In this document: one piece after another, positions 6,574-51,579 of the stretch | Numbering within the stretch: position 1 is the stretch's first letter | How the letters are laid out: each line of letters starts with the position of its first letter | Assembly: GCF_029873255.1 (NCBI RefSeq) | Contig: NZ_CP123622.1 | Location: forward strand, 3,385,001 to 3,449,000 | DNA from: Pigmentibacter sp. JX0631 | GTDB taxonomy: Bacteria; Bdellovibrionota_B; Oligoflexia; Silvanigrellales; Silvanigrellaceae | DNA length: 64,000 nt | Reading direction: 5' to 3' | Made by a program: the position numbers and the translations under genes | The notes under the pieces: model-generated | Told to the model about the DNA's origin: nothing | Database searches by the model: none | The model's input: the letters and a program-made list of their open reading frames with translations, nothing else

Positions 6574-6623
6574 ACATTTATCCATAAAGTTTTTGGTTAT
6601 GTGAGTCATTTGGATATAATTCC

Positions 6624-7346
6624 TTAAACAAGAAATTTTTTCATTTTTTCATCATAGACTACTTGGGCATCATTCAAAGACAACCGAGAATAAATCTCTA
6701 AAGATTGCCTTGTTACATGACCAGAATACGGCTGAATAAGAGCATCATCAACCCCTTGAGACTTTAACCAGCGGAATAAGTAGTGGCGTATTTTGTGAGG
6801 GGTTAAACTTTCTGATATTTCAGCTTCAGAAACATATCTTTTAAACATTTTTTGAATTCCGCGTGGAGTATATTTTTTATGCCAAGAGGATTCAAATAAA
6901 TATGTTGCGCTTTCTAACTTCATTTTTTGAATATGTCCTTTTAAAACTTCTTTGAATTGTGTAGGAAAAGGAACTATTCTATCTTTTTTTCCTTTACCTT
7001 CCTGAATTTTAATTTGACAAGCATCAAAATCGACATTTTCAATTTTTATATTTACAATTTTAGACACTCTACAACCTGTATACAATAAAGTTTTAATAAT
7101 GAGAATATCTTGGAAATTTTTAGCCTCCCATACGGCTTTATAAAACTTTTTTAGTTCTTCATCAGATGGAACGTAAGGAAGTTTTTTACCTTTTTTTTCG
7201 ATTTTAATCCCAAACTCTATTCTTAGATATTTGAAGACATCTTTAAGATAAAAATAATTTGGTTTTTCTTTTCTTAATGTTTTTGCAAACTCTTTCGCTT
7301 TTTTTATAGCTGGTGTTCTATTTTGTTCTCGCATGATAGACTCCAT
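6624..7346 (-). CDS. Tyrosine recombinase of transposon A
   Basis: 240 aa, lambda-integrase/XerCD class. All catalytic positions are visible: Arg93 in TGCR, Lys in the GKGKKDR turn, His184-x-x-Arg187 in PHKIRH, His210 in SGH and Tyr219 in EIYSRL. By analogy with TnpI of Tn4430 it should resolve cointegrates made by TnpA. Its stop lies near the left terminal repeat, and it starts 4 bases after the tnpA stop, so the two form one operon read toward the left end. It is clearly homologous to the 17185-17895 protein. It may still be active although its partner tnpA is dead. Confidence 0.85.
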   Translation of the reverse strand: MESIMREQNRTPAIKKAKEFAKTLRKEKPNYFYLKDVFKYLRIEFGIKIEKKGKKLPYVPSDEELKKFYKAVWEAKNFQDILIIKTLLYTGCRVSKIVNIKIENVDFDACQIKIQEGKGKKDRIVPFPTQFKEVLKGHIQKMKLESATYLFESSWHKKYTPRGIQKMFKRYVSEAEISESLTPHKIRHYLFRWLKSQGVDDALIQPYSGHVTRQSLEIYSRLSLNDAQVVYDEKMKKFLV

Positions 7347-7349
7347 TAA

Positions 7350-9415
7350 TTATGCAGATAAAGCTTTTTTAAAAGGAATTCTTTCATTCATATCAAGAGT
7401 AAATTTACCATAAGGATTAATATGTGAATGAATGATTGGAGTTAAAGCTCTAAAATCATTTTTATCCATTAAATTAAACCAATATTTTTCCGAAAGAACT
7501 TCTTGAATCATAAGGGTATTAATATATACAAGACATACTTGTAAGAGTTGAAGTGCTAAAATAGACAGTTCTTGTTCTTCTAATCTGTTAGAAGAAAATT
7601 CACTATTCTTTCCGTAAAAAATAAATCCTGTGATACCATTCCAACGCTCAACAATATTAAGGCCTTCATTAATTTCTTGTCTAAGATCTTCAGAATCAAG
7701 ATATCTGAATAAAAAAATTGTTTTAATTGCTTTACCTAATTCATGAAGTGCTAGGTATGCAGGATGTTTAACTGGGTTTTTTGTGAATCGTTTTAAAATA
7801 GATTCAGTTTCAGCCGTCCCTAAACGGAGTGCAGTTGCATATTTTACCATTTGATCATATTGCTGTTCAATAAGTTCCCAGTCAATTTTTTTTGTCAATA
7901 TTAATTTTAAATTGTTAAGTTCTTCCTTTATGTCCTCATCTGTTAATGAGAGTTTTTGTGCATATATATTTTTAAGCCGTGGCATTAATTGAAATCCAAG
8001 TAGATGTGTAAAAGCAAATCCAACTTCACTTTGACCATGAGTATCAACAAAGTGCTTTTCAATATTCACTTCATTACAATGTCTTAAAACTCCTTCAATC
8101 ATAGAAGCTACTTCAGAAGAAGAACAAGATTTTAATTGTGAATAAATACACAAGGAGTTTTTTTCAACATGCCAATAAATCATAACTCCTCGACCACCAT
8201 AGCGAAGGTGATATTCTGTCATTAAATTTTGTTCCCATGCTCCGAATTTTTTTGAATCAGAAGCAGATGTCGTAACAGTCACATTTCCCCATATTTTTTT
8301 CACTCGTGTTTTAAATGTTGCATTGATAACAGATGCTATAGCCTCTCTTAGTTGTTCTTTTGTAATATATGTCTTTTTAACATGATTTAGTTCATAATGC
8401 TGTACCCTGAAATCAAACTACTTGCTCTTGTTATTCCTGTATTTGTGCCAAGAGCAAACAAACATGTCAATAATCTTCTTTGTAAAATGTCTTTTGCTAA
8501 AACTTCCTTTGTACCAACGGTAGAAAATTTACTTACAAAATCAAGTCTCAAATCTGTTTCCTTAAGAACATCAAGTAAACTTGTGTGTTTCCAGCGTTTA
8601 TAAATTTCTTTTTGTATTTTTTTTAAGTTCTCCGGCTCACTTTGCTCATCTAATGGAGTAAGTTGTATCCATCCTTTCTTATATTTTTCTAGAATTTTTA
8701 CTTTTTTATTTTTAACTATACGTTTATTAAGATTCATTAATTCTTTTGTCATTAGATCTTTAATCAATTGAATAAATTCTTTTACATTAGTGGGAAGATT
8801 CAAGGCTTTATAATATTCTTCTCTGAGTGAATCAAAATCATCAGGAAGATCTTCGTCAGGATTTCTAAATCTATTGGCTCCAACAATCCAAATTTTCCTG
8901 CACCTTAGCCCTTCTCTTAAAGCTTGAAGAAGGCAAATTTCAAAACTAATTCTATTTATTTTTTCAACTATAAAATTCCGAAGATTTTTCTTAAGAAGAC
9001 TATCTATTTGGCTTTCTTCTTCAATTGTAAAATATCTCTTTTTTTCATTTAGGTGTAATTTTATTAAAGATAGTCCTTTAATTATTGACTGATGGTATTC
9101 ATTATTTGAACTAAATTCAAACCGCTGTAAAATTTCAGGGAGCATTCTTCTGTAATGACCTGAATAAGAATCTCGAAGAGTATAATGAATTTTTTTATGA
9201 TAGGATGTGGTTCCTTTTTCTTTAAGTTCTTTAATTAGCTCTTTTAGTGTGTCCTGACTTGCAATAGGGTAGATAATATCCTCAATAACACCCAGCGGAT
9301 ATTCCACTAAAGGTTCTGCGACATTCAAAAATAGCTCATCTTTGTTTGGAATTTTACTGTTTTTAATGGCATCTAAAATTGACTTTTCAACTTTCCCTTC
9401 TGAATTTGAAGACAT
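7350..9415 (-). pseudogene. tnpA: Tn3-family transposase, N-truncated and frameshifted
   Basis: Two frames together match residues from about 310 to the end of the intact TnpA at 14170-17163. The upstream piece (8387-9415) covers the middle, ending at TRASSLIS; near 8400 one base is missing compared with the intact copy and the frame changes. The downstream piece (7350-8303 plus about 80 bases before it) carries the RNase-H-like core with [15 protein letters not shown] and the final GKNSEF. The first 310 residues, which hold the DNA-binding part, are replaced by the divergent nuclease gene. A few matching codons upstream of 9415 already contain a stop. Confidence 0.9.
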
Positions 9416-14169: not shown

Positions 14170-17163
14170 ATGCCACCAAAAAAATCAAATTATGACTTTG
14201 ATGAAATTTATAAACTATTACCTCACGAAAAAGTTTTGATGGAAAGAGCTAGAGAAAAAACGACAGTTCCATTAGCAATACTTATTGTATATTATCGTAT
14301 TAATAAGACTTTTCCAGATGAATTAGCAGATGTTCCTAAATTTCTTATTAAATGTCTGGCAGAACAATTTGAATTAGATTGGAAAGATTGTCAGAAAATT
14401 TTTAAAAATTATGACTTACATAGCAGAACTGCAACAAGACATAGAATGCTTATTAGAGACTTTTTTGGTTTTTCCGAATCTACAGAAAAAAATTTAGAAC
14501 AATTTAAAGAATATTTATTTCATGAAAAACTTCATTTGGAGTGTAGGATCAATGTATTAAAAGAAATAGCGGATAACTGGTTTATTCAAAATAAACTTGA
14601 AATTCCTGCACAAAGTAGTGTAGATAGAGTTATAAAATCTGTATTGCAAATTTGGGAAAATAAATTATTTTCAAATATCTTTACATCAATATCTACTTCA
14701 ACTAAAAATGAAATCGATGCACTTTTACAAGCGCCAACAGAAAAAATAATTCAAGTAAAACGAGCTGGAGTTGTTAAAGAAAAAAAAGCAAAAAGTGGTT
14801 TTGCTCTTGTCAAAGATGATCCAGGAAAAATTGGTCTTGATAGTTTAATGCAAGAAGTAAAGAAATTCGACTTACTTTCTAAAATAAGCTGCACAGATAT
14901 TTCTTTAAATCATCTTTCTTTAAGAGTTTTAAAAAAATATAAAAATAGAGTTTCAATAGAAACCATATATGATATGCGTACTCATCCAGAAACAATTAGA
15001 TATCCTCTCATGTCAATCTATGCTTTTGTGAGAAAACAAGAAATTACAGATACAATAGCTGATCTTCTTATTCAATTGATTCATAAAATATCATCAAATT
15101 CAGAAGGAAAAGTAGAAAAAGAGTTATTAGAAGAGATAAAGAAAAAAGTTTCTGGTAAGAATGAAATTCTACTTAATATGTCAGAATCTTCTGTTGAAAA
15201 TCCAAAGGGCACAATTGAGGAAATTATTTTTCCAGTAGCAAGTGAAGAAACTCTTCGAGCAATTATTAAGGAATTAAAACAAAAAGGTACTTCGTATCAT
15301 GAAAAAGTTCATTATACAATGAGAGATTCTTACTCTGGACATTATAGAAAAATGCTTCCAGAAATCTTACAAAGAATTGAATTTAGATCAAATAATTATT
15401 ACCATAAACCAATTATTGAAGGTTTGAATTTATTAAAATCTCATCTAAATGAAAAAAACAGGTTTTTTAATTTAGAAGAAGAAAATCAAATTGATAGCAT
15501 TTTAAAAAAAAGTTTACGCAATTATATTATTGAAGAAGATAAAGATGGAAGTGAGAAAATAAATAGAATTAGTTTTGAAATATGCCTCTTACAATCACTT
15601 AGAGAAGGATTAAGATGCCGAGAAGTTTGGATTGTAGGTGCAAATCGATATCGAAATCCTGATGAAGATTTACCTGATGATTTTGATACTATGAAGAAGG
15701 AGTATTATGAAGCATTAAATTTGCCAATAGATGCAAAAGAATTTATCAAATCAATTATAGTAATTATGGAAAAAGAACTTAGAGCTCTTAACCATAAAAT
15801 GTCAAGAAATAAAAAAGTAAAAATTCTTGATAAGGGGAAAGGATGGATCCATTTAACTCCAATTGATGAGCAAGAAGAACCTGAGAATTTAAAAAGAATT
15901 CAAAAGGAAATATTTAAAAGATGGAAACATACCAGTTTGCTAGATGTTCTTAAAGAAACTGATTTAAGAGTAGGATTTACAAATAAATTTTCGACTGTCG
16001 GCACTCAGCAATTTCTAGAAAAAGATATTTTACAAAGACGACTTTTATCATGCTTATTTTCAATTGGAACAAATACTGGATTAACGCGGGTAAGTAGTCT
16101 AATCCCTGGTGAACATTATCATGAATTAAGTCATGTAAAAAAAACTTATATCACAAAGGAGCAACTTCGCGATGCTATTGCAACTGTAGTGAATGCAACT
16201 TTTCAAATTAGAAAGAAAAAAATATGGGGAAATACTACAGTAACATGTGCTTCAGATTCTAAAAAATTTGGTGCTTGGGAACAAAATTTAATGACTGAAC
16301 ATCATATTCGATATAATGGACGTGGAATTATGATATATTGGCATGTGGAAAAGAAATCAATGTGTATCTATTCGCAAGTAAAGTCGTGTTCATCGTCAGA
16401 AGTCTCTTCAATGATAGAAGGGGTTTTACGTCATTGTACTGATATGAAAATAGAAAAACATTTTGTTGATTCCCATGGGCAAAGTGAAATTGCATTTGCT
16501 TTTACTCATCTTCTAGGATTTCAATTAATGCCACGTTTAAAAAGAATTCATGCTCAAAAATTATATTTACCTCATAAAAATATGAAGGAAGAGTTAAAAA
16601 ATTTAAGCCCAATACTTACAAAAGAAATTGATTGCGAAATTATTGAACAACAATATGATCAAATGGTAAAGTATGCTACAGCTCTTCGATTAGGAACTGC
16701 AGAAACTGAATCAATATTAAAAAGATTTTCAAAAAATCCTATAAAGCATCCAACATATCAAGCTCTACATGAGTTAGGGAAAATTATTAAAACAATTTTC
16801 TTATGCAGGTATTTAGATTCAGAAGATTTAAGACAAGAAATACATGAAGGATTAAATGTTGTTGAAAGATGGAATGGTATTAATGGATTTATTTTTTATG
16901 GTAAAAATAGCGAATTTGCTTCCAACAGATTAGAGGATCATGAATTATCTGTGTTAGCACTTCACTTACTTCAGGTTTGTTTAGTCTATGTAAATACCCT
17001 TATGATTCAAGAGGTTTTAAGTGAAAAGCATTGGTTCGATTTAATGGAAAAAAATGATTTTAGAGCCTTAACTCCTCTTATTCATTCTCATATTAATCCA
17101 TATGGTAAGTTTACTTTGGATATGAAAATCAGGATTCCTCTTAAAGATATTTTATCGGCTTAA
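14170..17163 (+). CDS. tnpA: Tn3-family transposase, intact
   Basis: 997 aa, the usual TnpA length. The N-terminal part (DUF4158-type, to about 310) binds the terminal repeats; the C-terminal part holds the RNase-H-like core with Asp696 (ASDSKKFG), Asp767 (VDSHGQSE) and probably Glu915 (YGKNSEF) as the DDE triad. It carries out replicative transposition of transposon B. Ribosome-binding site GAGAGG precedes the ATG. The recombinase gene follows 21 bases after the stop. It is a close relative of the broken copy at 7350-9415 and shows what that copy has lost. Confidence 0.95.
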
Positions 17164-17184
17164 TAATATTCATTGAGGTAAACT

Positions 17185-17895
17185 ATGATTGAATATAAAA
17201 GAACTCCAGCAATAAAAAAAGCAAAAGAAATAGCAAAGATATTAAGATCTGAAAAGCCAAATTATTTTTATTTAAAAGATATATTTAAAATTATTAGAAA
17301 AGAACTTGAAATAAAGATTGAAAAGAAAAGTAAAAAGTTGCCTTATGTTCCAAATGATGATGAGTTAAAACGATTTTATAAGGCTGTTTGGGAAGCAAAA
17401 AATTTTCAAGATATGCTTATCATAAAGACACTACTTTACACAGGAGCAAGAGTTTCTGAGCTTGTTAATATGAAAATTGTAGATGTTGATTTTGAAACTT
17501 GCCAGATTAGAATTCATGAAGGAAAAGGAAGAAAAGATAGAATTACGCCGTTTCCTATTCAATTTAGAGAAGTATTAAAAGGTCATATTCAAAAAATGAA
17601 ACAAGATAGTGCAACTTATCTTTTTGAATCATCTTGGCATAGGAAATATACTTCTCGAGGTATTCAAAAAATGTTTAAGAAATATGTTATTGAAGCAGAA
17701 ATATCAGGAAACTTAACTCCTCATAAGATGCGACACTTTCTTTTTAGATGGTTAAAATCACAAGGTATAGATGATGCTTTAATTCAGCCTTATTCAGGAC
17801 ATGAAACTCGACAGTCATTAGAAATTTATTCTCGTTTGGCAATTCACGAAGCTCAAATAGTTTATACAGATAAAATGAAAAAATTTCCAGTATAA
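17185..17895 (+). CDS. Tyrosine recombinase of transposon B
   Basis: 236 aa with the full catalytic set: Arg89 (TGAR), Lys in GKGRKDR, His180-x-x-Arg183 (PHKMRH), His206 (SGHETRQ) and nucleophile Tyr215 (EIYSRL). It probably resolves TnpA cointegrates, as TnpI does in Tn4430; in that element the recombinase gene comes before tnpA, here it comes after. AGGT stands before the ATG. The stop lies 26 bases from the inner border of the right terminal repeat. Confidence 0.9.
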   Translation: MIEYKRTPAIKKAKEIAKILRSEKPNYFYLKDIFKIIRKELEIKIEKKSKKLPYVPNDDELKRFYKAVWEAKNFQDMLIIKTLLYTGARVSELVNMKIVDVDFETCQIRIHEGKGRKDRITPFPIQFREVLKGHIQKMKQDSATYLFESSWHRKYTSRGIQKMFKKYVIEAEISGNLTPHKMRHFLFRWLKSQGIDDALIQPYSGHETRQSLEIYSRLAIHEAQIVYTDKMKKFPV

Positions 17896-17921
17896 TTAAA
17901 TATTTATAATTATTTTATCCC

Positions 17922-18404: not shown

Positions 18405-19790
18405 AATAAGTTCTCCAATATTTATATTTTATTTAAATTTGTTCGATTTGAATTAATTAAAAAGAACTATTTTTCAGAAGTGACTTTGATATCAAAACAC
18501 TTCTTTAAATTAACAGCAATAATTTATTTTTCAAATCATTTTCAGTATAAATGTTTTACTAATCAATAAATTCAGTGATATCTTAGTCTTAAATATTTAT
18601 AACAAATAAAATAATTTTTATACTATTATTTTTACATCTATTTAGTTGTAAATTTTATATTTTTGTTTATTATTATATTTTTTATAAATGAATGTTTTCT
18701 TTAAGATTTGTTATTTATCTTTTGTTTTTTTGGTTAAAAATTTCTTCTCGCTTTTTATTTGTAAATGATGAATCTAAAGTTTACATAGTTCATTAGAAGT
18801 ATTTAAAACAATTGTAATTTATATTTCTAATATAATGAAACTATAAACTAATATGTTAATTATAATCAAAAATATAAATTATAAAAAAATATTAAAATTT
18901 TTAACTAAATATTGATAATTTATATAATTTTTATATTACTTTCTATATCATCAATTTGAATTTATAAAAAATAACATTTTTTAGTAACTACTTGTTTCAC
19001 TAAAAAGATACATCTTTTAATACGATTAATTATTTGAATTTCTACAATTATACAAAGCTCAGGCTTTTCTATTATTCACCATAAAGTAACAAATAGAAAG
19101 TGCAAAATAGCCATAACCAAAAATATCAATTCTTATAATAAGTCTTATTATATAATAATTCTTATCAGTAATAGTTAATTTTTGATATTATTATTGATAT
19201 TTTTGTTCTGTATAGTTATCTTAATAAAAATAACTTATATCTTATTTGTGATTAATGTCTAATTTTTCAGAAAATTAAAGGAGGCATTAGATTGAAAATG
19301 TTTTTATTATATTTATAAGTTAAATAAATTATTACTCCATTTTTTTGGATGCATAAAATTTATGCAGTAAATTTGTTTTACTCTTAGTGTAGAATCATTG
19401 CAAAAATAAAATTAATGGTACTTTAATTTTAGTTATAAATTTCTTGAAATCATGACTAAAAGTGAGATTTTATTATATTTAATTCAATAATTTCAGATTT
19501 TTAAAGTTAAGTAACATATTTTATGGTAAATATTTGTTATAAATTTAATTTTATGATAAAGGAACTTGTTAGATAGAATTTTCTATCTAGAATAGTGATA
19601 TTCATGGCTTTGTAGATTGGAATATAAATACTTCTAAAATAAAATAGGTTATTTTGGATTTCTTGTCTATTTATTATACTATTTCTAAATTAAATATAAA
19701 GTATTAAAAATCAAAACTAAATAGATATAGCTAGTTAATTTTATTATAAATAAATTAGTTTTAAAAAATTAAATAGAAAGAGAATAGCTT
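18405..19790. other. Long intergenic region before phytochrome 1
   Basis: Very A+T-rich, no gene seen. Its last 240 bases are conserved upstream of the second phytochrome gene (see 19551-19700). Confidence 0.5.
19551..19700 (+). promoter_or_regulatory. bphP: Conserved upstream block of phytochrome cassette 1
   Basis: TTATGATAAAG (19551-19561), the dyad TAGATAGAA-TT-TTCTATCTA (19570-19589) followed by GAATAGTG, and TACTTCTAAAATAAAA (19629-19644) reappear in the same order before the second phytochrome gene (42379 down to 42230). The first motif is 240 bases from this start and 229 from the other. A shared promoter or operator is inferred. Confidence 0.55.
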
Positions 19791-21347
19791 ATGAGTATAA
19801 TTATTAAAAATAATTATGATTATTGTGAAAAGTTAGAAGTTAGTTTAACTAATTTTTTTCAATCAGATGCAATATTAATAGGAATAAGTCTAGAGGCGGG
19901 AAAAATCATCTTTGCTTCTGAAGGTTATTATGATTTATTCAGTTATGAGATATATAATAAAGATATTGCCAATGTCTTTACTCAAAGATCAATAGAAAAA
20001 TTAGTAAATTTCTCAAGTAAATTAAAATCATTTAATAATAAGTCAAGAGTTCTTGTAAATTTAGAAATTTACTTGAAAAAATATTTGGTCAATATACCGT
20101 CTTTTATGTTTTTCTCAGGGTCTGTTTTATGCATTGAATTCCAAAGCAATTTTGATAGGCTAAATTATTATTTTGATGAAATAAAATATCAAGAAATCCT
20201 TCAATATTTAACGGAATCTAAAGATAGCATAAATGTATTAAGTAATAATCTATGCAAATATATTTCAGAAGTAACAGGATTTGAAAGAACTTATTTTTGT
20301 GAATTTTTGCAAAATAACCACGCAGTAATCAAGGCAAATTATTTTTCTAATGGATTAGAAAGTATTCTACACCATCATTATCCAGCCACAGATCTTCCTA
20401 TGTCAGTAAGAGAGATATACATAAAAAATAAATTTAGGATAATTTATAATGTAGATTATATTCCGCTACCTATTAAAGGGTGTATCAATAAAATTGATCT
20501 TACATATTCTATATTTAGAGATATATCTTCTATACATTTAGATTACTTAAGAAATATGAGTTTAAAATCAGCTACCTCATTTTCAATTGTTGTTGATGGA
20601 AAACTTAAAGGTTTAATTGGGGGGCATTCTAAACATAAAAACCATACTCCAATTGAATTGTTGCCTAAAATTCAAACATTAGTAGATGCTATTTCCATTA
20701 AAATAAAGCAACTTAGAAATAATATTATAAAAAAAGTAAATGTAGAATTTAACTCATCTATCGATGAGTTCGTTTTGTCATATGAAAAATCTCAATGTAA
20801 TTTTGAGAAAATGCCTAATAAAAGTTTTGATTTATTAAAAGAGATATTTAGTTCACATTTGTTATGTTATAGATACAATAGCAAAAATGAAGAAAGTTCA
20901 GTTATTCCAACAGAATTTGTAGATGAAGTCTTAAAAAAATTAAAGAAATATAAAATAAGAAATATATACATTTTTGATAGATTAGTTACTTTTAATCCTA
21001 TTTTTTATAAATGGTCAAAATCTATTGGAGCTGGAATGCTGGTTATTAATTTAAGTAATGATTTATCAAATTTTATAGTTTTAATAAGAAAAGAGGAAAA
21101 CCATACTTTAAAGTGGAGTGGAAACCCGGAAGAATTAGATCTTTTTTCGGAAGAGGAGAAGATAGTAAATCCTAGAAGGTCATTTAATACATGGCTTCAA
21201 GATATAAATCATAAATGTAAGCAATGGACAATGAAAGATTATGAAATTGCCTTAAAACTCCATAATCAACTAATTCTAACACGTTCAAATTTATTGAACC
21301 ATGTACAAATGAATAGAGAAATAAAATTTTATGAAACAATAAATTAA
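19791..21347 (+). CDS. bphP: Bacteriophytochrome photosensor without output domain (copy 1)
   Basis: 518 aa. Order: PAS (about 1-115) with Cys12 (YDYCEKLE) at the biliverdin-attachment position; GAF (about 140-305) with HHHYPATDLP (194-203; DLP instead of the usual DIP), IYNVDYIPLPI, and SIFRDISSIHLDYLRNM; PHY (about 320-510) with tongue motifs WSG (442-444) and PRRSF (461-465). It is a red/far-red photosensor with linear tetrapyrrole. The chain ends right after PHY, so no kinase, GGDEF or other output is attached; the signal must pass to a partner. The heme oxygenase that makes biliverdin follows after 43 bases. Confidence 0.92.
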   Translation: MSIIIKNNYDYCEKLEVSLTNFFQSDAILIGISLEAGKIIFASEGYYDLFSYEIYNKDIANVFTQRSIEKLVNFSSKLKSFNNKSRVLVNLEIYLKKYLVNIPSFMFFSGSVLCIEFQSNFDRLNYYFDEIKYQEILQYLTESKDSINVLSNNLCKYISEVTGFERTYFCEFLQNNHAVIKANYFSNGLESILHHHYPATDLPMSVREIYIKNKFRIIYNVDYIPLPIKGCINKIDLTYSIFRDISSIHLDYLRNMSLKSATSFSIVVDGKLKGLIGGHSKHKNHTPIELLPKIQTLVDAISIKIKQLRNNIIKKVNVEFNSSIDEFVLSYEKSQCNFEKMPNKSFDLLKEIFSSHLLCYRYNSKNEESSVIPTEFVDEVLKKLKKYKIRNIYIFDRLVTFNPIFYKWSKSIGAGMLVINLSNDLSNFIVLIRKEENHTLKWSGNPEELDLFSEEEKIVNPRRSFNTWLQDINHKCKQWTMKDYEIALKLHNQLILTRSNLLNHVQMNREIKFYETIN

Positions 21348-21390: not shown

Positions 21391-21987
21391 ATGATTCAAA
21401 ATGATTGTTCTTTAAGTTTCCATGAATTATTAAAATTAGAAACTTCAAAGATTCATAAGGAGGTTGAATTTTTAGTAAAAATTAATTCTCCACAACCTGC
21501 CTTAAGTGATTATATAGATTACATTGTTGTAATGTACAAAATAATTGCACCTTTAGAGAAAATTGCTTTAAAATATTTTGAATTTGAAAGCTCATTCCCA
21601 AAGACGACTAAAAAAAATAAAACACAAAAGTTGAAGTTAGATTTAGATAGTCTTGATATTGATCTAAATAAAATTAATTTTTCTATATTTGTTCCTGAAA
21701 TTAATTCTTTTGCAGAGCTATTAGGATGCTTATATGTAGTTGAAGGATCTTCAATAGGATCTCAAATTATTTGTAAGAAACTTTACTCACTCTATGGAGA
21801 AGAATTAAAAAATAAAATGAATTACTTAAATGGATTTGGGAGAGATTCTTTTAAAAATTGGATTTATTTTATTGAATATTTAGAAAATTATACAACATTA
21901 TTTCCTGATAAAAAAAATATTATAATAAGATCAGCTCTAGAAACTTTTAATTGCTTTAAAACTGAATTCAAAAATGTAATTACATGA
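21391..21987 (+). CDS. bphO: Heme oxygenase of phytochrome cassette 1
   Basis: 198 aa, BphO/HO-1 fold. Proximal heme ligand His22 lies in LETSKIHKEVE; the distal-helix glycine segment appears as LGCLYVVEGSSIGSQII, the usual family hallmark. It opens heme to biliverdin, the chromophore of the phytochrome upstream; the pair forms a sensor-plus-chromophore operon. A good site (AAGAGG) precedes the ATG. The paralogue at 39964-40551 is encoded in the same arrangement. Confidence 0.92.
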   Translation: MIQNDCSLSFHELLKLETSKIHKEVEFLVKINSPQPALSDYIDYIVVMYKIIAPLEKIALKYFEFESSFPKTTKKNKTQKLKLDLDSLDIDLNKINFSIFVPEINSFAELLGCLYVVEGSSIGSQIICKKLYSLYGEELKNKMNYLNGFGRDSFKNWIYFIEYLENYTTLFPDKKNIIIRSALETFNCFKTEFKNVIT

Positions 21988-23303: not shown

Positions 23304-23831
23304 ATGACAAGTAACATCCAGAATACACAAAGTACACAGAGCAATAGAAATGAAGAAGGATCAAATTCAGTTCATAAAGCAAATACCACACGAGGAGAAA
23401 ATAACGACGAAAGAGAAGATAACAGAGCTCTGACTTCTGAAGAATTAGGCCGAAAAGGGGGAGAAGCTACAGCTGCTACCCATGGTAGAGAGTTTTTTCA
23501 AGAAATAGGCCATAAGGGTGGTGAGGTTCGCACGGAACAAATGCGGGAAGCAAAAGCTGCTAAAGAGCGTGAAGAAGAGCATAACAATCAATCAAATCAA
23601 AACGGACAATATGATCGCGGTTCAAGAAATGATCGTGGTTCAAGAAATGATCGAGCATCTAGAAATGAAAATAATGAAAGGAGAGAACGTAACGATAATA
23701 ATGAAAGGAGAGAACGTAACGATAATAATGAAAGGAGAGAACGTAACGATAATAATGAAAGGAGAGAACGTAACGATAATAATGAAAGGAGAGAACGTAA
23801 CGATAATAATGAAAGGAGAGAACGTAATTAA
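23304..23831 (+). CDS. KGG-motif stress protein with repetitive tail
   Basis: 175 aa. After a polar N-terminus come two KGG units: SEELGRKGGEATAATHG and FFQEIGHKGGEVRTEQM (about 46-85). The tail is disordered: degenerate RGSRND units and then six copies of NNERRERND. Mixed Arg/Glu tails of this sort suggest nucleic-acid or protein shielding under drought or osmotic stress, but this is a guess. GGAG precedes the ATG. Because the repeat unit is 27 bases the +1 frame is open as well; it is a shadow. Confidence 0.85.
   Translation: MTSNIQNTQSTQSNRNEEGSNSVHKANTTRGENNDEREDNRALTSEELGRKGGEATAATHGREFFQEIGHKGGEVRTEQMREAKAAKEREEEHNNQSNQNGQYDRGSRNDRGSRNDRASRNENNERRERNDNNERRERNDNNERRERNDNNERRERNDNNERRERNDNNERRERN
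23670..23831 (+). repeat. 27-bp tandem repeat, six units
   Basis: Units of 27 bases, in frame with the KGG gene, each coding for NNERRERND. Five units appear identical and the sixth ends the gene (NNERRERN, stop). Copy number should vary easily by slippage. Confidence 0.9.
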
Positions 23832-24121
23832 TATGTCATAGAGTATGAATTGATACGGAAAATTGATAACAAGAATTGAGTGGCATAAAATGATAATAAT
23901 TAATGAAAATCATCTGATCCTAAATTTTAAGAAACAAAATCAATATTAGATATTTAGCAAAAGAAGAAGAAGTTGAAATTAGATAAGAAGCTGAAATGAG
24001 CCGCCTTCTAACTTATGCACTTATTAATAATATACAAATAGTTTACATAAAAACAGAATGAATTATTTAATTATATTAAAGATTATTAAGCTTTAAACAA
24101 AATATTTATGGGAGAATTTAA

Positions 24122-28325: not shown

Positions 28326-28859
28326 TTACTGATCATATATCTTTACTATCATTGATTTACATTCCTGAAATTCAGTGCGTGTCATATATAGGTCTGCAAT
28401 TCTTACACCTTCTTTATTAAATTCTCTCAAATCATCACAATTATTATTTCCTGTGTAACTGGTTGGATCAGGAAATTCTTTTCTGGACGTTAAAATAGAT
28501 TTATTATCGAAAATAAATCTTATTGAATCAGAACATTTTATTCTAGTAACTTCGATAGAATATTTTTGATCTTTCCCTTTTTATAAAGCTCTTTTTTTAA
28601 AAATTGTTTGCATTGTAACCGAACAACTATGCTTTGCACGATCCCCAGACACTATCAATGAATTTAAAGTACAATTTCTTCCATCTTTTGGTGATTCACA
28701 GATTAGTGAATATAAAACAATACTATGATTGTCACTTGAGATTTGTTTATAGTGATTAATTTTATTCAAAAGAGAATATGTAGGGATAAAAATGAAACAT
28801 GAGATAGCTGTAGTAATATTTATGAATATTTTTTTTGCTCCATTGTAAAGTGTCCTCAA
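28326..28859 (-). pseudogene. Unknown exported protein with one internal stop
   Basis: The first 92 codons (28584-28859) start with a hydrophobic segment (ITTAISCFIFIPTYSLL) and contain CESPKDGRNCTLNSL. An in-frame TAA at 28581-28583 follows, then the same frame stays open for 84 codons (KGKDQKYSIEVTRIKC ... TGNNNCDDLREF ... EFQECKSMIV) to a TAA at 28326. Cysteines are spread over both halves, as in an exported protein with disulfides. The whole would be about 177 residues. No family was recognised. The stop could be a mutation or a base-call error. Confidence 0.55.
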
Positions 28860-38502: not shown

Positions 38503-39684
38503 ATGGAAAATGTATTGCGATATTTAGAATTAATTTCTAAATATAATGAAAATATTTCTGATGAATTAATTAGAAATAGTACTATAAATAATTCTCCTGA
38601 AAAAAAACAAAAAAATAAGTTTTATTTTAGGGGGCAAAGCAATTGTTCATGGAAATTAATTCCTAGTATCTTTAGACAGGAATGTGTTGATTATGATGAA
38701 GCTAAATTAATTAAAAGTGTTCTTAAATTTAAATATTCACATTTTGATATTGACGACATTGGTTTAAATACAATATTACAAAAAACTTTAGAATTACAGC
38801 ATTATCACATGCCAACACGTCTTCTTGATTGGAGTGAAAATCCATTAGTGGCGCTATATTTTGCAGCATGTAATGACAATAATAAAGATGGCACTATATT
38901 TTTATTATATAATCTTCAAGAAAAAGGAAATGAAAAATTAGCTAAATTAAATGATTTTAATTTTAGGTTAAAATTAAAAATTTCAATAATGGACAATAAA
39001 AGTTCTATTTTAAAAGAGTTGAATAATGAATATAATAAATTTAAAGAATTATTCAAATACAATAATATTGATATTGAGAAATTTAATAAAGAAGAAAATA
39101 GTAATCAAAATAATGATATTTTCAAATTTTCAAAAGAAGTAATGAGATTTAAAAAGGTTGGAATTAGGTCATTAAATAGAAATTTAACAACGCCATTAAC
39201 TGAATTTGTAACTGATCAAGGTTCTGTTTTTTCATTAGAAGATGATTGTGAAATATTAAAAGAAATTCAGAAGAGAATATCTTTTATATATAAGTTAAAT
39301 GAGGCAAGTATTATTAAGTATAGAGAAACCGACCGTGGTAAAAATCAATCTTCAATTTTTACCATGCATTTTGGGAAAATTATAGATAATAAAATTATAA
39401 TTCCTTATGATCTTTTTGAAGAAAATAAAAGATTAGAAAATAAAGTTAATAAAACTGATTTTCAATTAGATCATTGGAATGGATCTAACTTACTTGTAGC
39501 AAAAATACTACTTAGAAAAGAGGATAAGTCAAAAATTATTTATGAACTTAGAAAATACTTTGGTATCCATGATGCTTTTATTTATCCTGATGACAAAAAA
39601 AGGAAATTTGATTATCTTTATCAAGAATTTATTTGCAGAGAGTATAATGATACTGAAAATTTTAAATATACCAATAATATTTAG
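38503..39684 (+). CDS. FRG-domain protein
   Basis: 393 aa. The FRG domain occupies about 38-125: FYFRGQ (40-45), SWKLIPSIFR, and LELQHYHMPTRLLDWSENPLVALYFAA (97-122). These are its defining parts. The rest is Asn/Lys-rich and ends in a small helical part (LRKEDKSKIIYELRKYFGIHDAFIYPD) common to long FRG proteins. The biochemical role is not known; the domain is often found in mobile or defence contexts. AGGA precedes the ATG. It is a solitary gene between an IS scar and the phytochrome cassette 2. Confidence 0.85.
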   Translation: MENVLRYLELISKYNENISDELIRNSTINNSPEKKQKNKFYFRGQSNCSWKLIPSIFRQECVDYDEAKLIKSVLKFKYSHFDIDDIGLNTILQKTLELQHYHMPTRLLDWSENPLVALYFAACNDNNKDGTIFLLYNLQEKGNEKLAKLNDFNFRLKLKISIMDNKSSILKELNNEYNKFKELFKYNNIDIEKFNKEENSNQNNDIFKFSKEVMRFKKVGIRSLNRNLTTPLTEFVTDQGSVFSLEDDCEILKEIQKRISFIYKLNEASIIKYRETDRGKNQSSIFTMHFGKIIDNKIIIPYDLFEENKRLENKVNKTDFQLDHWNGSNLLVAKILLRKEDKSKIIYELRKYFGIHDAFIYPDDKKRKFDYLYQEFICREYNDTENFKYTNNI

Positions 39685-39963: not shown

Positions 39964-40551
39964 TTATTGCTTATTTTTACTTTCTAGTTCTAACTTAAAG
40001 CATTTAAATGTGTCAATTGCAGATTTTAAAATGATATCTTTCTTTTCAGGAAAAGAAATCGTATAATTTTCTAAAGATTCAATAAATTGGGCCCAATGTT
40101 GAAAAGTATTCCTTCCAATTCCATTTAAATAATTCATATTATTTATAAAATTTTCACCAAAAAGTGAACAAAGTTTCTTAAAAAGAAATTGTGTTCCTAA
40201 AGAAGATCCTTCAAGCACATAAAAGCACCCTAAAGCTTCATCAAAACAATTAATATGAGGAACAAATTTAGAAAAATTAATTTTCGCAATATCAATATCA
40301 AGATTTTTTAAATCTAATATTAATTTATTACTTTTATTTTTTAAAATAGTCTTTGAAAAAGATATTTCAAATTCATTAAAATTTAAAATATCTTTTTCAA
40401 GAGGAGTCATAACTCTATACATTACTATTAAATAATCTATATACTCATTAGTAGAATTTATTTTTATTAAATTATCTAGTTCATTGTGAATGTTTTTGGT
40501 TTTTAATTTTATTAATTCATGAAAACGAATCGATAATTCGCTATTTATCAT
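39964..40551 (-). CDS. bphO: Heme oxygenase of phytochrome cassette 2
   Basis: 195 aa, paralogue of 21391-21987 along the entire length. His22 (TKNIHNELD) is the proximal ligand; the distal segment is LGCFYVLEGSSLGTQFLF, closer to the textbook form than in copy 1. It should produce biliverdin for the phytochrome encoded 42 bases upstream. GAGG precedes the ATG. Confidence 0.92.
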   Translation of the reverse strand: MINSELSIRFHELIKLKTKNIHNELDNLIKINSTNEYIDYLIVMYRVMTPLEKDILNFNEFEISFSKTILKNKSNKLILDLKNLDIDIAKINFSKFVPHINCFDEALGCFYVLEGSSLGTQFLFKKLCSLFGENFINNMNYLNGIGRNTFQHWAQFIESLENYTISFPEKKDIILKSAIDTFKCFKLELESKNKQ

Positions 40552-40593: not shown

Positions 40594-42150
40594 TTAGTTT
40601 ATAATGCTGCAAAATTTAATTTCACTATTCATTTGAATATTATTTAAAAAATTTGAACGAGTTAAAATAAGTCGATTATAAAGATGTAAAGCAATTTCAT
40701 AATCCTTCATAGTCCATTGTTTACATTTATGGCTTATATCTTGCTGCCATGTGTCAAAAGATCTTTTTGGATTTAAAATCTTTTCATCATTTATAAAAAG
40801 ATCTAATTCTTCAGGTTTTCCACTCCACTTTATAGTCTGACTTTCCTCTTTTCTTATTAGAACAATGAAATTTGATAAATCATTACTTAAATTAATAACA
40901 AGAATACCTGCCCCTATTGTTTTTGACCATTTATAAAAAATTGGATTAAACGAAACTAGACTATCAAATATGTAAATATTTTTTATTGGATATTTCTTTA
41001 GTTTTTTTAATACTTCATCAATAAAATCTGATGGAATTATAGAATGAGTATCTATTTTATTATTAAATCTGAAAAATATTAGGTGTGATTTAAATATTTC
41101 CTTCAATACACTAAAGCTTTTATTAGGTACTTTTTCTAGATTACACTCAGATTTTTCATAAGAAGATACAAATTTATCAATATGCGAGTTATATTCTAAT
41201 TGTACTTTTTTTATTATATTGCTTCTAAGTTGGTTAATTTTTATTGCAAATGCATCTATTAAAGTTTGAATTTTTGGTAATACTTCAATTGGAGTATAAT
41301 TTTTATGTTTTGAGTGGCAGCCAATCAAACCTTTAAGTTTTCCATCAATAACGATTGAGAAAGATGCAGCTGATTTTAGACTCATATTTCTTAAATAATG
41401 CAAATGAAAAGATGATATATCTCTAAATATTGAATAAGTTAAATCAATTTTTTTATTGCATCCTTTAATTGGTATCTGAGTATAATCAACATTGTAGATT
41501 ATCCTAAATTTATTTTTTATGTATATTTCTCTCACAGACATAGACAAATCTGTGGCAGGATAGTGATGACTCAAAATATTTTCTAAACCATTAGAAAAAT
41601 AGTTTGCTTTAACAATTCCATGGTTATTTTGTAAAAACTCACAAAAATAAGTTCTTTTAAACCCCGTTACTTCTGAAATATATTTACAAAGTATATTACT
41701 TAAAGAATTTATGCTATCTTTTGTTTCTGTTATATATTCATATATTTCTTGAAAGTGTATTTCATCAAAGTAGTAATTTAATTTATCAAAATTACTTTGA
41801 AATTCTATACATAGGACAGAACCTGAAAAAAACATAAAAGAAGGAATATTGACCAAAAAGTTTTTTAAATATATTTCTAAATTTGCAAGCACCCTTGATT
41901 TATTATTGTATAATTTTAATTTAGAAGAGTAATTTAAAATTTTATGCAAAGATCTTTGACTGAAAACATTTTCAATATTGTTATTGTATAATTCATAACT
42001 AAATAAATCATGAAAATTTTCAGAAGTAAAAATAATTTTATTATTTGATAGATTAATTCCTATTAAAATTGAATCAGATTGAATAATATTAGTAAGATTA
42101 ACATCTAATCTTTCACAATATTCATAATTATATTTGTTTATTATACTCAT
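40594..42150 (-). CDS. bphP: Bacteriophytochrome photosensor without output domain (copy 2)
   Basis: 518 aa, the same length as copy 1 and alignable without visible gaps. Cys12 (YEYCERLD) is kept. The GAF motif reads HHYPATDLSMSVREIY, so the Pro of DIP/DLP is Ser here; the chromophore pocket and photochemistry may differ. The PHY tongue has WSG and PKRSF instead of PRRSF. As in copy 1 the protein ends after PHY with no kinase. The cassette is inverted with respect to copy 1. Confidence 0.92.
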   Translation of the reverse strand: MSIINKYNYEYCERLDVNLTNIIQSDSILIGINLSNNKIIFTSENFHDLFSYELYNNNIENVFSQRSLHKILNYSSKLKLYNNKSRVLANLEIYLKNFLVNIPSFMFFSGSVLCIEFQSNFDKLNYYFDEIHFQEIYEYITETKDSINSLSNILCKYISEVTGFKRTYFCEFLQNNHGIVKANYFSNGLENILSHHYPATDLSMSVREIYIKNKFRIIYNVDYTQIPIKGCNKKIDLTYSIFRDISSFHLHYLRNMSLKSAASFSIVIDGKLKGLIGCHSKHKNYTPIEVLPKIQTLIDAFAIKINQLRSNIIKKVQLEYNSHIDKFVSSYEKSECNLEKVPNKSFSVLKEIFKSHLIFFRFNNKIDTHSIIPSDFIDEVLKKLKKYPIKNIYIFDSLVSFNPIFYKWSKTIGAGILVINLSNDLSNFIVLIRKEESQTIKWSGKPEELDLFINDEKILNPKRSFDTWQQDISHKCKQWTMKDYEIALHLYNRLILTRSNFLNNIQMNSEIKFCSIIN

Positions 42151-42229
42151 AAAATACTCTCTTTAAGTTAATTAAAAGTTAATTGATCTATTTTTAAATA
42201 GAATTAGCAAAATATTTAAAATTATTTGT

Positions 42230-42379
42230 TACTTAATTTGATTGTGAAATAGCATTAAAATAGATAAGAAAATAAAATAGCCATTTTTATTTTAGAAGTA
42301 TAAGGTTTCTGATCTAAATCGTTATAAACACCACTATTTTAGATAGTGGGAATCTATCCGGAAAAATTCTTTATCATAA
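42230..42379 (-). promoter_or_regulatory. bphP: Conserved upstream block of phytochrome cassette 2
   Basis: On the minus strand: TTATGATAAAG (42379 down to 42369), GGATAGATTCCCACTATCTA followed by AAATAGTGG, TACTTCTAAAATAAAA (42300 down to 42285), and TTCTTATCTATTTT. The same elements in the same order precede copy 1. On this side a second dyad CCACTAT / ATAGTGG (42331-42349) is formed. Confidence 0.55.
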
Positions 42380-43061
42380 TAAAAAAAAATAACATATTTT
42401 TAAGATAAAATATGTTACTTAAATTTAAATATTTGAAATTATTAAATATTATTTTAAAATTAGAAACGATTTAGTTAGTCCTAGAATAAAATGTTAACAG
42501 TAAAGTACCAAGAAGTTAAATTGCTGTAAAAGCGCTTGTATAAAAATCAAATTTTAATTCTGAATGTAAGAAATTAAAATATTTTAGTAACAAATACTCT
42601 ATAAAAAATGTTAAATTTTATAGCATAATATTCTGCTGAAGTTAAAATATTTTAATTTACTGAAATTACATATATATTATTTTATCTGTTCTATTCTTAT
42701 ATTAGATATATTCTATTTTTAGATTATCTTATTGATTTGTTTTTAGTGCAATAAATCTATTAATTATTTTATAAAAGAATCTGAAAGATTTATTTTGTAA
42801 CTATAATTCTTTATTTTTAATTCTTGTCGTTTTTACTCAAAATTTACGCCAAGCATAAGAATTCATTTATCTCAAAAAATTATATAATGCAATTCAAAAG
42901 CGATATTTAATTAAAAATATTTGAATAGAAAGTTTCATCCGCATTGAAGTTAAAATTACCTTCCGTATTAATCTTGTTCTTTACCTTATAAAATGTATTA
43001 TAAAAATATACAGTTCAGATAACTGATAAAATATCCAAAATAATTTTGAAAGGAGTTTAAA
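42380..43061. other. Intergenic, no gene seen
   Basis: Between divergent phytochrome and PhzF genes; A+T-rich; AAAGGAG before 43062 is the PhzF ribosome-binding site. Confidence 0.4.
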
Positions 43062-49524: not shown

Positions 49525-51579
49525 TTATTTTACAATAGTTGGATCCCATGAAGTTTTAAAATTTATTTCTAATGAATTTAATTCTGCAATATCTTTGTAT
49601 GTGAGATCAAAATTAAAAATATTTAAGTTTTCTTTCATATGCTCTATATTTTCAGATTTTGGTATAGCACAAAAACCATTTTGATAACTCCATCTTAGTA
49701 AAACTTGTGCTGGATTTACATCATATTTTAGCGCAATCTTTAAAACTATAGGATCTGCAAGAAAATGAGCATTAGTTAATGGAGCCCAAGCACATATTGT
49801 AATGCTATTTTCAAAACAATATTTTACTATGTCTTGCTTTTGATTAAATGGTGTAATTTATAATTGATTTATTGCTGGTTTAATTGAACATATTTTTAAT
49901 AGTTCCTCTAAATGTGAAATTCCATAATTTGATACTCCTATTGCTTTTATATGTCCTAATTCAGAAATTTTTTCAATTTCCTTCCATGCAGCCAATCTAT
50001 TTTCAACATTTTTTGGTGAATGTATCATATACAAATCAATATATTCCAAACCTAATTTTTTTAGACTATTACTAAATTCAGTTTTTACAAATTTTGGATC
50101 AACTTTTGAAGAAGCAAGTTTAGTACTAATGAATAATTCTTCCCGCGGAATATTTGAATCTTTAATAGCTTTACCAATATCTTCTTCATTTTCATAAACA
50201 CTTGCAGTATCAATATGTCTATATCCTAATTTTAGGGCATTTAAAACTGCATTATATGTTCTAATCCCAGGTGGAATTCTATAAGTTCCTAATCCAATCA
50301 TTGGGACAAAAGTTTTTTTTACTATTTCTTTAGCAGGTATTTTTTGATATTTAGAGGAAATTTCTGAATTATCTTCTTTAATTTTAAAGTATTTTCTGTT
50401 TATAAGTGGATCTTTAATGTAATCATCTACAAACCGATAAATAACTTCTTCTGTAACATGCTCCATAGTGAAAATATGCGTAAAGTTGCCTTGTGAATTA
50501 TTTGAATTTTGATCAACAAAAATAGGTAAATGGTATTTTTTTGCAAGAATTTGAGAAGGAGCTGGTAATACAACGCAAGGTGAGAATTTATTATGCCATG
50601 CTTCAATATTTTTACTATTTAAAATTTCTGTTAATATTTTTGTTCTTTCCAAAATTGTTTGAGTACGTTTTTTAAAACCTTCTACACCTACTTTTTTTAT
50701 AATATTTAAGGCAATGATTGGTACTGTTCCATCTCTTGAACCACCAATTGTTGTATCATATGAAGCAACACATTCTGCAAAAGGAGAACATGGAAGATTG
50801 CTAATCACTTTTTTTCGCGCCAAAAATAAAGACCCTGGCATTGGAATCCCTACTCTTTTATGTAAACTTACAGATAATGTATCAATTTCTTCAATCCTAA
50901 AATCAAGAGACAAAGGTTGATTTTCTAAAAATGGTGTAATCAATCCACCTAAAGCAGCATCAAGATGAATGTGATAATTTTCTGATTTAATATTTGCTAA
51001 ATTAATACAATTTATTAATTCTAAAATATTATCATAGGCTCCTTTCGCTACTGAACCAGAACAAAAAATAAATATATAATTTTCATTTTTTTTCTGCTTT
51101 TTTAATTTGGAGAAAAGATCTTCAGCTGACATTGAACCATTAGGTTCTGTTTTTACTTTTAAAATTTGTTTGCATCGAGTGATTAAAGCAGCTTTTAATA
51201 TGCTATAGTGAGCATCATCAGCAAATACTAGGATAGGATCAAGAAATCTTCGCATGCCAATATGAATACCATGTAAATTTGAAAATGAAGAGCCTGGATT
51301 TGTGTATCCCCAAACATCATTTTCTGGTAATTTAAGCAAATTAGATACAAAATAAATTAATTCCTTTTCTGCTTCAAAAGAAACCAAATGACCACCCAAA
51401 CCAGTAAATGGGTCGCCTAAATTATTGATAGTATGACCGAGAAGTGGCCAAAAACCCTCGCACTCTGATGTCTTTTGATTGAGCTGTATGCCTAAACAAT
51501 TTTTCGTTTCTTCTTCAAATTTTTTAGCTAATTCTAACGCTATTTTATATGTCGGAGTATTTTGAATTATTTTTTCCAA
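49525..51579 (-). pseudogene. PLP decarboxylase fused to aldo/keto reductase, one internal stop
   Basis: 685 codons with one in-frame TAA at 49858-49860; before it 573 residues. About 1-400: group II-type PLP decarboxylase like histidine decarboxylase, with HLDAALGG (Asp207) and SLHKRVGIP where Lys241 should bind PLP. About 420-685: aldo/keto reductase with MIGLGTYR, HIDTASVYENE (Asp457, Tyr462), Lys487 and MIHSP (His520). After INQL the stop stands where family members usually have Glu; ITPFNQKQD, CAWAPLT, QVLLRWSYQNG and PKSENIEH go on normally. The decarboxylase half may work without the rest. Possible product: an amine/aldehyde derivative. Confidence 0.8.

Follow-up and report, generated by a model that had tools for sequence, protein, structure and literature searches.

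Two bacteriophytochrome genes of Pigmentibacter sp. JX0631 differ in motifs close to the chromophore, and the locus raises the question of whether the encoded proteins respond to light differently and together make up a two-channel light sensor, as an original prediction made from the sequence had proposed. The window analysed here, a stretch of 64,000 nucleotides (positions 3,385,001 to 3,449,000 of contig NZ_CP123622.1), is part of a 3.65 Mb genome assembled as a single contig. Phytochromes are understood as sensor-plus-output machines; the two proteins, referred to as copy 1 and copy 2, are paralogs that consist of the photosensory core only. In the fuller reading that we favor, and to which we give an even chance, copy 2 is maintained with an altered anchor between the GAF domain and the tongue, and its light state would be more stable or slower-reverting and would act through a partner. 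Residue numbers count from Met1 of copy 1. Going by motif position, the Cph1 equivalents are Asp207 for D201 and Tyr176 for C170.

Two Core-Only Bacteriophytochromes, Each with Its Own Heme Oxygenase Gene

Copy 1 is encoded at positions 19791–21347 of the plus strand and copy 2 at 40594–42150 of the minus strand; the latter interval, where the prediction for both proteins had been placed, holds copy 2 only. The genes are in inverted orientation, ~19 kb apart, and their 518-amino-acid products are 77% identical in the alignment. Both open reading frames were assigned to the PAS-GAF-PHY class based on Pfam PHY matches (1.6e-19 for copy 1 and 1.2e-19 for copy 2), PDB sequence matches covering residues 11–495 (1.3e-35 for copy 1), and AlphaFold2 models (pLDDT 85.3 and 85.7, with the tongue modelled at low confidence) whose best Foldseek matches, 17–22% identical to the protein, include Agp1 at 1.1e-34 for copy 2. 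Pfam left PAS_2 unmatched in both copies, and GAF was either below the cut-off or unmatched. Both proteins contain C12 and C170. Copy 1 reads D201-L202-P203 and P461-R-R-S-F465, while copy 2 reads D201-L202-S203 and P461-K-R-S-F465.

A heme oxygenase gene follows each phytochrome gene. The one next to copy 1 (21391–21987, plus strand, 198 amino acids) starts 43 bases past the phytochrome stop and is matched by Pfam Heme_oxygenase at 6.5e-05, with 23.3 bits against a cut-off of 23; it also matches HemO of the PDB (1.4e-06), with the N-terminus-proximal His and the GSxxG motif aligned. Its counterpart next to copy 2 (39964–40551, minus strand, 195 amino acids, Pfam 2.6e-06) starts 42 bases past the stop and is 58% identical to it, so that the heme oxygenases diverge more than the sensors do. 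The likeness of the two loci extends about 310–325 bases upstream (19467–19790 on the plus strand and 42151–42460 on the minus strand; blastn, inverted pair I12, 86%). The upstream region of copy 1 includes an A+T-rich stretch that looks palindromic by eye (19482–19540, plus strand), and that of copy 2 an A+T-rich counterpart (42389–42447, minus strand).

Both copies resemble the bacteriophytochromes DrBphP, Agp1, and PaBphP in the PAS-GAF-PHY core, the PAS Cys, the GAF Asp and two His, the tongue motifs, and the neighboring heme oxygenase gene; they differ from them in the missing output domain, in DLP or DLS in place of DIP, and in Cys in place of Tyr176. As a set of paralogs within one organism, the pair is similar to RpBphP2 and RpBphP3 of R. 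palustris. These two proteins and SaBphP1 carry output domains, unlike the core-only pair described here. Two more phytochromes are encoded elsewhere in the genome: L003, a core-only protein of 531 amino acids with a heme oxygenase-like gene convergent to it, and L004, a protein of 740 amino acids bearing a HisKA_2 kinase. By eye, the L004 gene adjoins a squalene/phytoene-synthase-like gene and a receiver-domain gene. No paper in the open-licence literature joined Silvanigrella with phytochrome, and none of the matches listed by a wider search named Fluviispira or Pigmentibacter.

Apparent Repeated Loss of Output Domains in the Genus

Both copies end 23 residues after the match, at the place where the signaling helix would lead to a kinase, and no output domain was matched by Pfam in either. 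Among distant loci (the best 80 of 269), at least 113 residues follow the match (median 227) and none of the 80 is core-only. The 240 genomes in the class of G058 (the Pseudoroseomonas genome that contains L047) gave 25 matches, none shorter than 703 amino acids and none core-only. In the phylum of the host, the stop-to-stop frame is shorter than 580 amino acids for 8 of 27 PHY matches; six of these belong to the genus and two to other genera of the family, one of the two adjoining, by eye, a transposase-like open reading frame and possibly being cut.

Phytochromes were found in four of the eight genomes of the genus (one of the four without them is only 72% complete), and heme oxygenase matches occur in the same four. 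Each of the four encodes exactly one phytochrome with a HisKA_2 match. The core-only proteins include L005, counted as such from its 518 amino acids. Three others (L006, L009, and L007) keep ~220 C-terminal residues that gave no Pfam kinase match at E 0.1, although in L006 this region can be aligned to the L011 kinase (29% identity, E 8e-20); the three may be intermediate in output loss. A tree constrained to unite the six core-only proteins in a single clade was borderline rejected (p-AU 0.049), and the tail may therefore have been lost twice, with long branches in play. The genus seems to shed phytochrome output domains repeatedly. Since it keeps the sensor, the heme oxygenase genes, and purifying selection while doing so, it lends itself as a natural experiment on the capabilities of a bare photosensory core. 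Among the papers listed by searches of the open-licence literature for phytochromes without output or kinase domain, a single one looks close by title and opening of the abstract, and it concerns an engineered truncation (PMC6318211).

The DIP Motif: Leu Is Normal for the Lineage, Ser Is Not

According to the original prediction, the highly conserved DIP motif is changed to DLP in copy 1 and to DLS in copy 2. Both triplets are present: DLP, within PATDLP, at 20391–20399 of the plus strand, and DLS at 41542–41550 of the minus strand, where copy 2 reads PATDLSMSVREIY at D201 L202 S203 (window 41550–41542). Residue 203 is encoded by CCT in copy 1, by TCT in copy 2. The claim of high conservation is correct for Pro, which is found in 80/80 distant relatives (the best 80 of 269), in 14/14 distinct class relatives outside the genus, and in 12/13 genus members. 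For Ile it is correct outside the genus (78 I and 2 V in the best 80 of 269 distant relatives; 12 I and 2 V in the 14 class relatives) but not inside it, where 9 L, 3 V, and 1 I were counted. As triplets, the 13 genus phytochromes have DLP seven times, DVP three times, and DIP, DLS (copy 2), and ILP (L008) once each, while the best 80 of 269 distant relatives have 78 DIP and 2 DVP. The class relatives came from PHY-domain or whole-protein searches. The distant set is the best 80 of 269 confirmed hits, fetched with patterns that demanded [HN]HH[FY]PA[ST]D or a tongue motif; the patterns bias its counts at D and the two His, but do not set those at I and P. Based on these counts, Leu is normal for the lineage and Ser is not.

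The DIP Pro presumably corresponds to the Cys of DXCF cyanobacteriochromes. DLP of copy 1, listed in the prediction as a notable change, is the commonest form of the genus, and a specific tuning role for it was rejected, since 12/13 genus proteins have Leu or Val at this position. In line with this, Cph1 variants I208L and I208V still make Pfr. In the covered part of the source, I208L is described as still forming Pfr but with an affected Pr; its table row gives 648 nm and 698 nm, which we presume to be dark state and photoproduct, and that of I208V, under the same presumed columns, 660 and 704 nm (PMC12420706). No engineered variant of the DIP Pro was found in the literature passages covered.

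Copy 2 Is Changed on Both Sides of a Putative GAF–Tongue Contact

The second part of the prediction, that copy 2 lacks the DIP Pro and has PKRSF for the PRRSF of the tongue, is borne out by the sequence. PKRSF (in NPKRSF) is encoded at 40756–40770 of the minus strand, and PRRSF of copy 1 (in NPRRSF) at 21171–21185 of the plus strand; codon 462 is AAA in the former and AGA in the latter. The tongue Arg of PRxSF is kept in 14/14 class relatives outside the genus. D201, H249, and H279 are kept in both copies, while copy 1 combines the PRxSF Arg with the DIP Pro and copy 2 Lys with Ser.

To put these changes in perspective, departures were counted at columns invariant in the other genus proteins, with L007 and L008 excluded from the reference set as degenerate. 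The 10 other proteins agree at 51 columns; copy 2 differs from them at two of these, P203S and R462K. The chance of both departures falling among the six DIP and PRxSF columns is about 0.012, a value computed after the fact. Retaining L007 leaves 39 columns on which the 11 others agree, and P203S is then the sole departure of copy 2. The same count gave one departure of 50 for copy 1 (G178A), 1/50 each for L003 and L013, and 0/49 each for L005, L006, L009, L012, and L004. L011 (4/53) and L010 (6/55), more distant genus members with intact kinases, depart at several columns, so that a handful of departures is not in itself unusual. The highest numbers included those of L007 (11/49) and L008 (6/49: C12Y, H196Y, D201I, I245V, G444T, and P461S). 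Measured against a broad consensus, copy 2 departs at 22/65 columns and copy 1 at 24/65; at residue 278 copy 2 has the consensus Cys and copy 1 a Gly.

In the Pr state, the Asp of DIP is salt-bridged to the Arg of PRxSF, as passages of two papers report (PMC11924222, PMC11035067). Judged by alignment, P203S and R462K both fall in this known contact between the GAF domain and the PHY tongue. With respect to the Asp(DIP)-Arg(PRxSF) switch, the two copies are a mutant pair supplied by nature. Laboratory substitutions at the Ile of DIP (Cph1 I208L) or the Arg of PRxSF (IsPadC R467S, SaBphP1 R472A) are the closest parallels. According to the portions of the sources covered, IsPadC R467S has its Pr at 703 nm, compared with 709–710 nm in near-wild-type variants, and its light state recovers by only 30% in 24 h (PMC11035067); in SaBphP1 R472A, a stable Pfr is regained (PMC6126659). 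These are engineered changes to Ser and Ala, whereas that of copy 2 is natural and leads to Lys, a milder replacement. SaBphP1 also provides a precedent for natural substitution in the pocket, Thr289 for the usual His (PMC6126659, in part), at a residue other than those changed here. The suggestion that the copies may differ in color or dark reversion is therefore supported in part, by copy 2, whose departures flank a contact where published mutants alter Pfr stability and dark reversion; the DLP of copy 1 lends it nothing. The AlphaFold2 models do not discriminate between the copies, since the stretches of low confidence (residues 198–200 and the tongue) are nearly the same in copy 2 and in copy 1, which served as a control.

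Cys at the Tyr176 Position

The codons for Cys170, at 20298–20300 of the plus strand in copy 1 and 41641–41643 of the minus strand in copy 2, take the place of conserved Tyr176. Cys was found here in 13/13 genus phytochromes, including the two without the PAS Cys (L007 and L008), while Tyr is present in 80/80 distant relatives (the best 80 of 269) and in 12 of the 14 class relatives, with one Phe and one Leu. By these counts, the replacement appears to be the most unusual pocket change of both copies; being common to them, it cannot tell them apart. The dual-Cys phytochrome (FiDCB type) has its second Cys directly before the GAF His. In the alignment, neither copy has a Cys directly before His249 (Ile is found in copy 1 and Phe in copy 2), and Cys170 lies elsewhere, so the FiDCB-type feature is absent from both.

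Substitutions of Tyr176 in Cph1 can block photoisomerisation (PMC12420706, in part). Passages of another paper report fluorescence and a Pfr-like tongue for Cph1 Y176H and phyB Y276H, a gain of fluorescence by Tyr to His not being seen in bacteriophytochromes (PMC11924222). The genus thus carries a natural Cys at the same GAF Tyr at which laboratory mutants are known for strong effects. The open-licence literature yielded nothing on Y176C in a phytochrome.

Selection, Trees, and Gene Order

Terminal-branch dN/dS was 0.113 for copy 2 (bootstrap 5–95%: 0.075–0.149), 0.156 for copy 1 (0.089–0.331), 0.226 for L008 (0.159–0.332), and 0.090 for L005, all of these being rough values because dS between the copies is ~1 and support for the quartet used is not firm; the L008 interval overlaps that of copy 1. 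Judged from these ratios, copy 2 looks to be under selection. A pseudogene was ruled out by its open frame, its dN/dS of about 0.11, and the presence of its heme oxygenase gene.

The protein tree unites the four core-only genes copy 1, copy 2, L005, and L008 in one clade (100/100), in which copy 2 branches first (95/94) and the order of the other three is weakly supported (70/46). Holding copy 2 with L008 gave p-AU 0.063. In the DNA tree (codon positions 1 and 2), copy 2 was weakly joined with L008 (41/59), and the order of the four genes is unsettled. Copy 1 and L005 have neighbors in common. L008 (1498–3054 in a sister genome) is a core-only open frame lacking Cys12, Asp201, and His196 and with no adjacent heme oxygenase gene; apart from the phytochrome, its locus matches the window solely in a small gene, which is 45% identical to a neighbor of copy 1. 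L007 likewise lacks the PAS Cys that both copies have. Copy 2 and L008 are at most candidate orthologs, as synteny gives the relation no support and the protein tree separates the genes that the DNA tree weakly joins. An FRG-domain gene (38503–39684) flanks copy 2, while its sister-genome homolog lies ~2 kb upstream of the ortholog of copy 1; the region has therefore been rearranged.

A Possible Mechanism and Its Alternatives

Starting from the observed sequence, fold class, gene order, conservation, and missing tail of the copies and, roughly, from selection, we infer biliverdin binding, an altered reversion, and a partner. Copy 1 would be the syntenic copy with the pocket typical of the genus, and copy 2 a maintained paralog. 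Both cores would bind biliverdin supplied by the adjoining heme oxygenase and alternate between the Pr and Pfr states. Copy 2 very probably still binds it, because Cys12, Asp201, His249, and His279 are kept. Residues associated with bathy phytochromes are Gln at PASDIP-3, Arg at PRXSF-3, and Gly at PRXSF-8, neither exclusive to bathy proteins nor all present in each, as stated in part of the source (PMC12362586). They are absent from the alignment of the two copies (H195 and I458 in both, S453 in copy 1 and I453 in copy 2), and Pr is therefore the likelier dark state. The anchor of copy 2 would be altered on both sides, by Ser in place of Pro203 beside Asp201 and by Lys in place of Arg462 of the tongue, and a weakened Asp-Arg clamp in the Pr state would make the light state more stable or slower-reverting, perhaps with a small blue shift of Pr rather than a new color. 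A difference in Pfr stability between the copies is thus plausible. Against an altered clamp, Lys is positively charged like Arg and may preserve the clamp, and Arg463 might step in.

With the output domain missing from both copies, they can affect the cell only by way of a partner protein. The simplest arrangement would be dimerisation with L004, the one kinase-bearing phytochrome of the genome, given that paired bacteriophytochromes are able to heterodimerise: RpBphP2 and RpBphP3 are reported, in the passages covered, to do so when mixed (PMC12329595). The two-channel light sensor of the original prediction remains unproven; both proteins lack an output domain by which to report. A tentative extension to the whole genus, which we think unlikely, is that one phytochrome keeps its kinase while the others turn first into pseudokinases and then into core-only, light-dependent partners that tune it; copy 2 would provide a long-lived Pfr setting through P203S and R462K, L008 would be a light-blind partner, and Cys170, near ring D, would offer a different or second bilin link.

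The strongest competitor, although still rather improbable, is relaxed drift after duplication, whereby copy 2 would be losing its photochemistry and DLS and PKRSF would be early signs of a decay gone further in L008. The sister-species protein has indeed lost Cys12 and His196 (both to Tyr), Asp201 (to Ile), Gly444 (to Thr), and Pro461 (to Ser), with no heme oxygenase gene alongside; the same motif is altered in both extra copies (copy 2 and L008) but not in the syntenic pair formed by copy 1 and L005, and the weak DNA grouping of copy 2 with L008 (41/59) points the same way. However, the protein tree does not join them (p-AU 0.063), the dN/dS of copy 2 is as low as that of copy 1, its chromophore ligands and heme oxygenase gene are retained, and its departures amount to 2/51.

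We consider it unlikely that P203S and R462K are silent and that the second operon merely adds to the dose of sensor and biliverdin supply. Each change is a single base step, Lys keeps the charge, Ser is small, and the likeness of about 320 bases of the 5' region suggests that both copies may be expressed alike; these points have to be set against a Pro that is present in all 80 distant proteins (the best 80 of 269), all 14 class-level ones, and 12/13 of the genus, and against the meeting of both changes in one known contact. Still less probable are output-less biliproteins with no role in sensing, such as carriers or screens of biliverdin that hold the heme oxygenase product. The missing output domain, the heme oxygenase gene next in line, the occurrence of heme oxygenase matches in the same 4/8 genus genomes as phytochromes, and the loss of Asp201 from L008 despite a dN/dS well below 1 would suit such a role, but copy 1 and L005 keep the tongue motifs and the photoconversion residues except Tyr176, which a mere carrier would not need. 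A sequencing or assembly error is scarcely credible even though DLS and PKRSF differ by one base each, as the genome is a single contig and both are in-frame substitutions on two sides of one contact. The reading that we favor therefore remains a maintained copy 2 with an altered GAF–tongue anchor.

Other Features of the Window

Rfam gave no matches within the window at gathering scores. Positions 6616–9415 and 14170–17903 form an inverted pair, 75–79% alike, of Tn3-family transposase and recombinase-like genes, the minus-strand transposase reading as two open reading frames. At 28329–28859, an open reading frame of 92 amino acids has a sister homolog of 173 amino acids, and the homology runs beyond its stop; the gene therefore seems to have an internal stop. 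Tandem repeats of 27 bases at 23637–23852 end a gene with what look, by eye, like KGG-like repeats, where a second, overlapping open frame is present. Finally, a single frame at 49858–51579 resembles, by eye, a PLP-dependent decarboxylase fused to an aldo-keto reductase.
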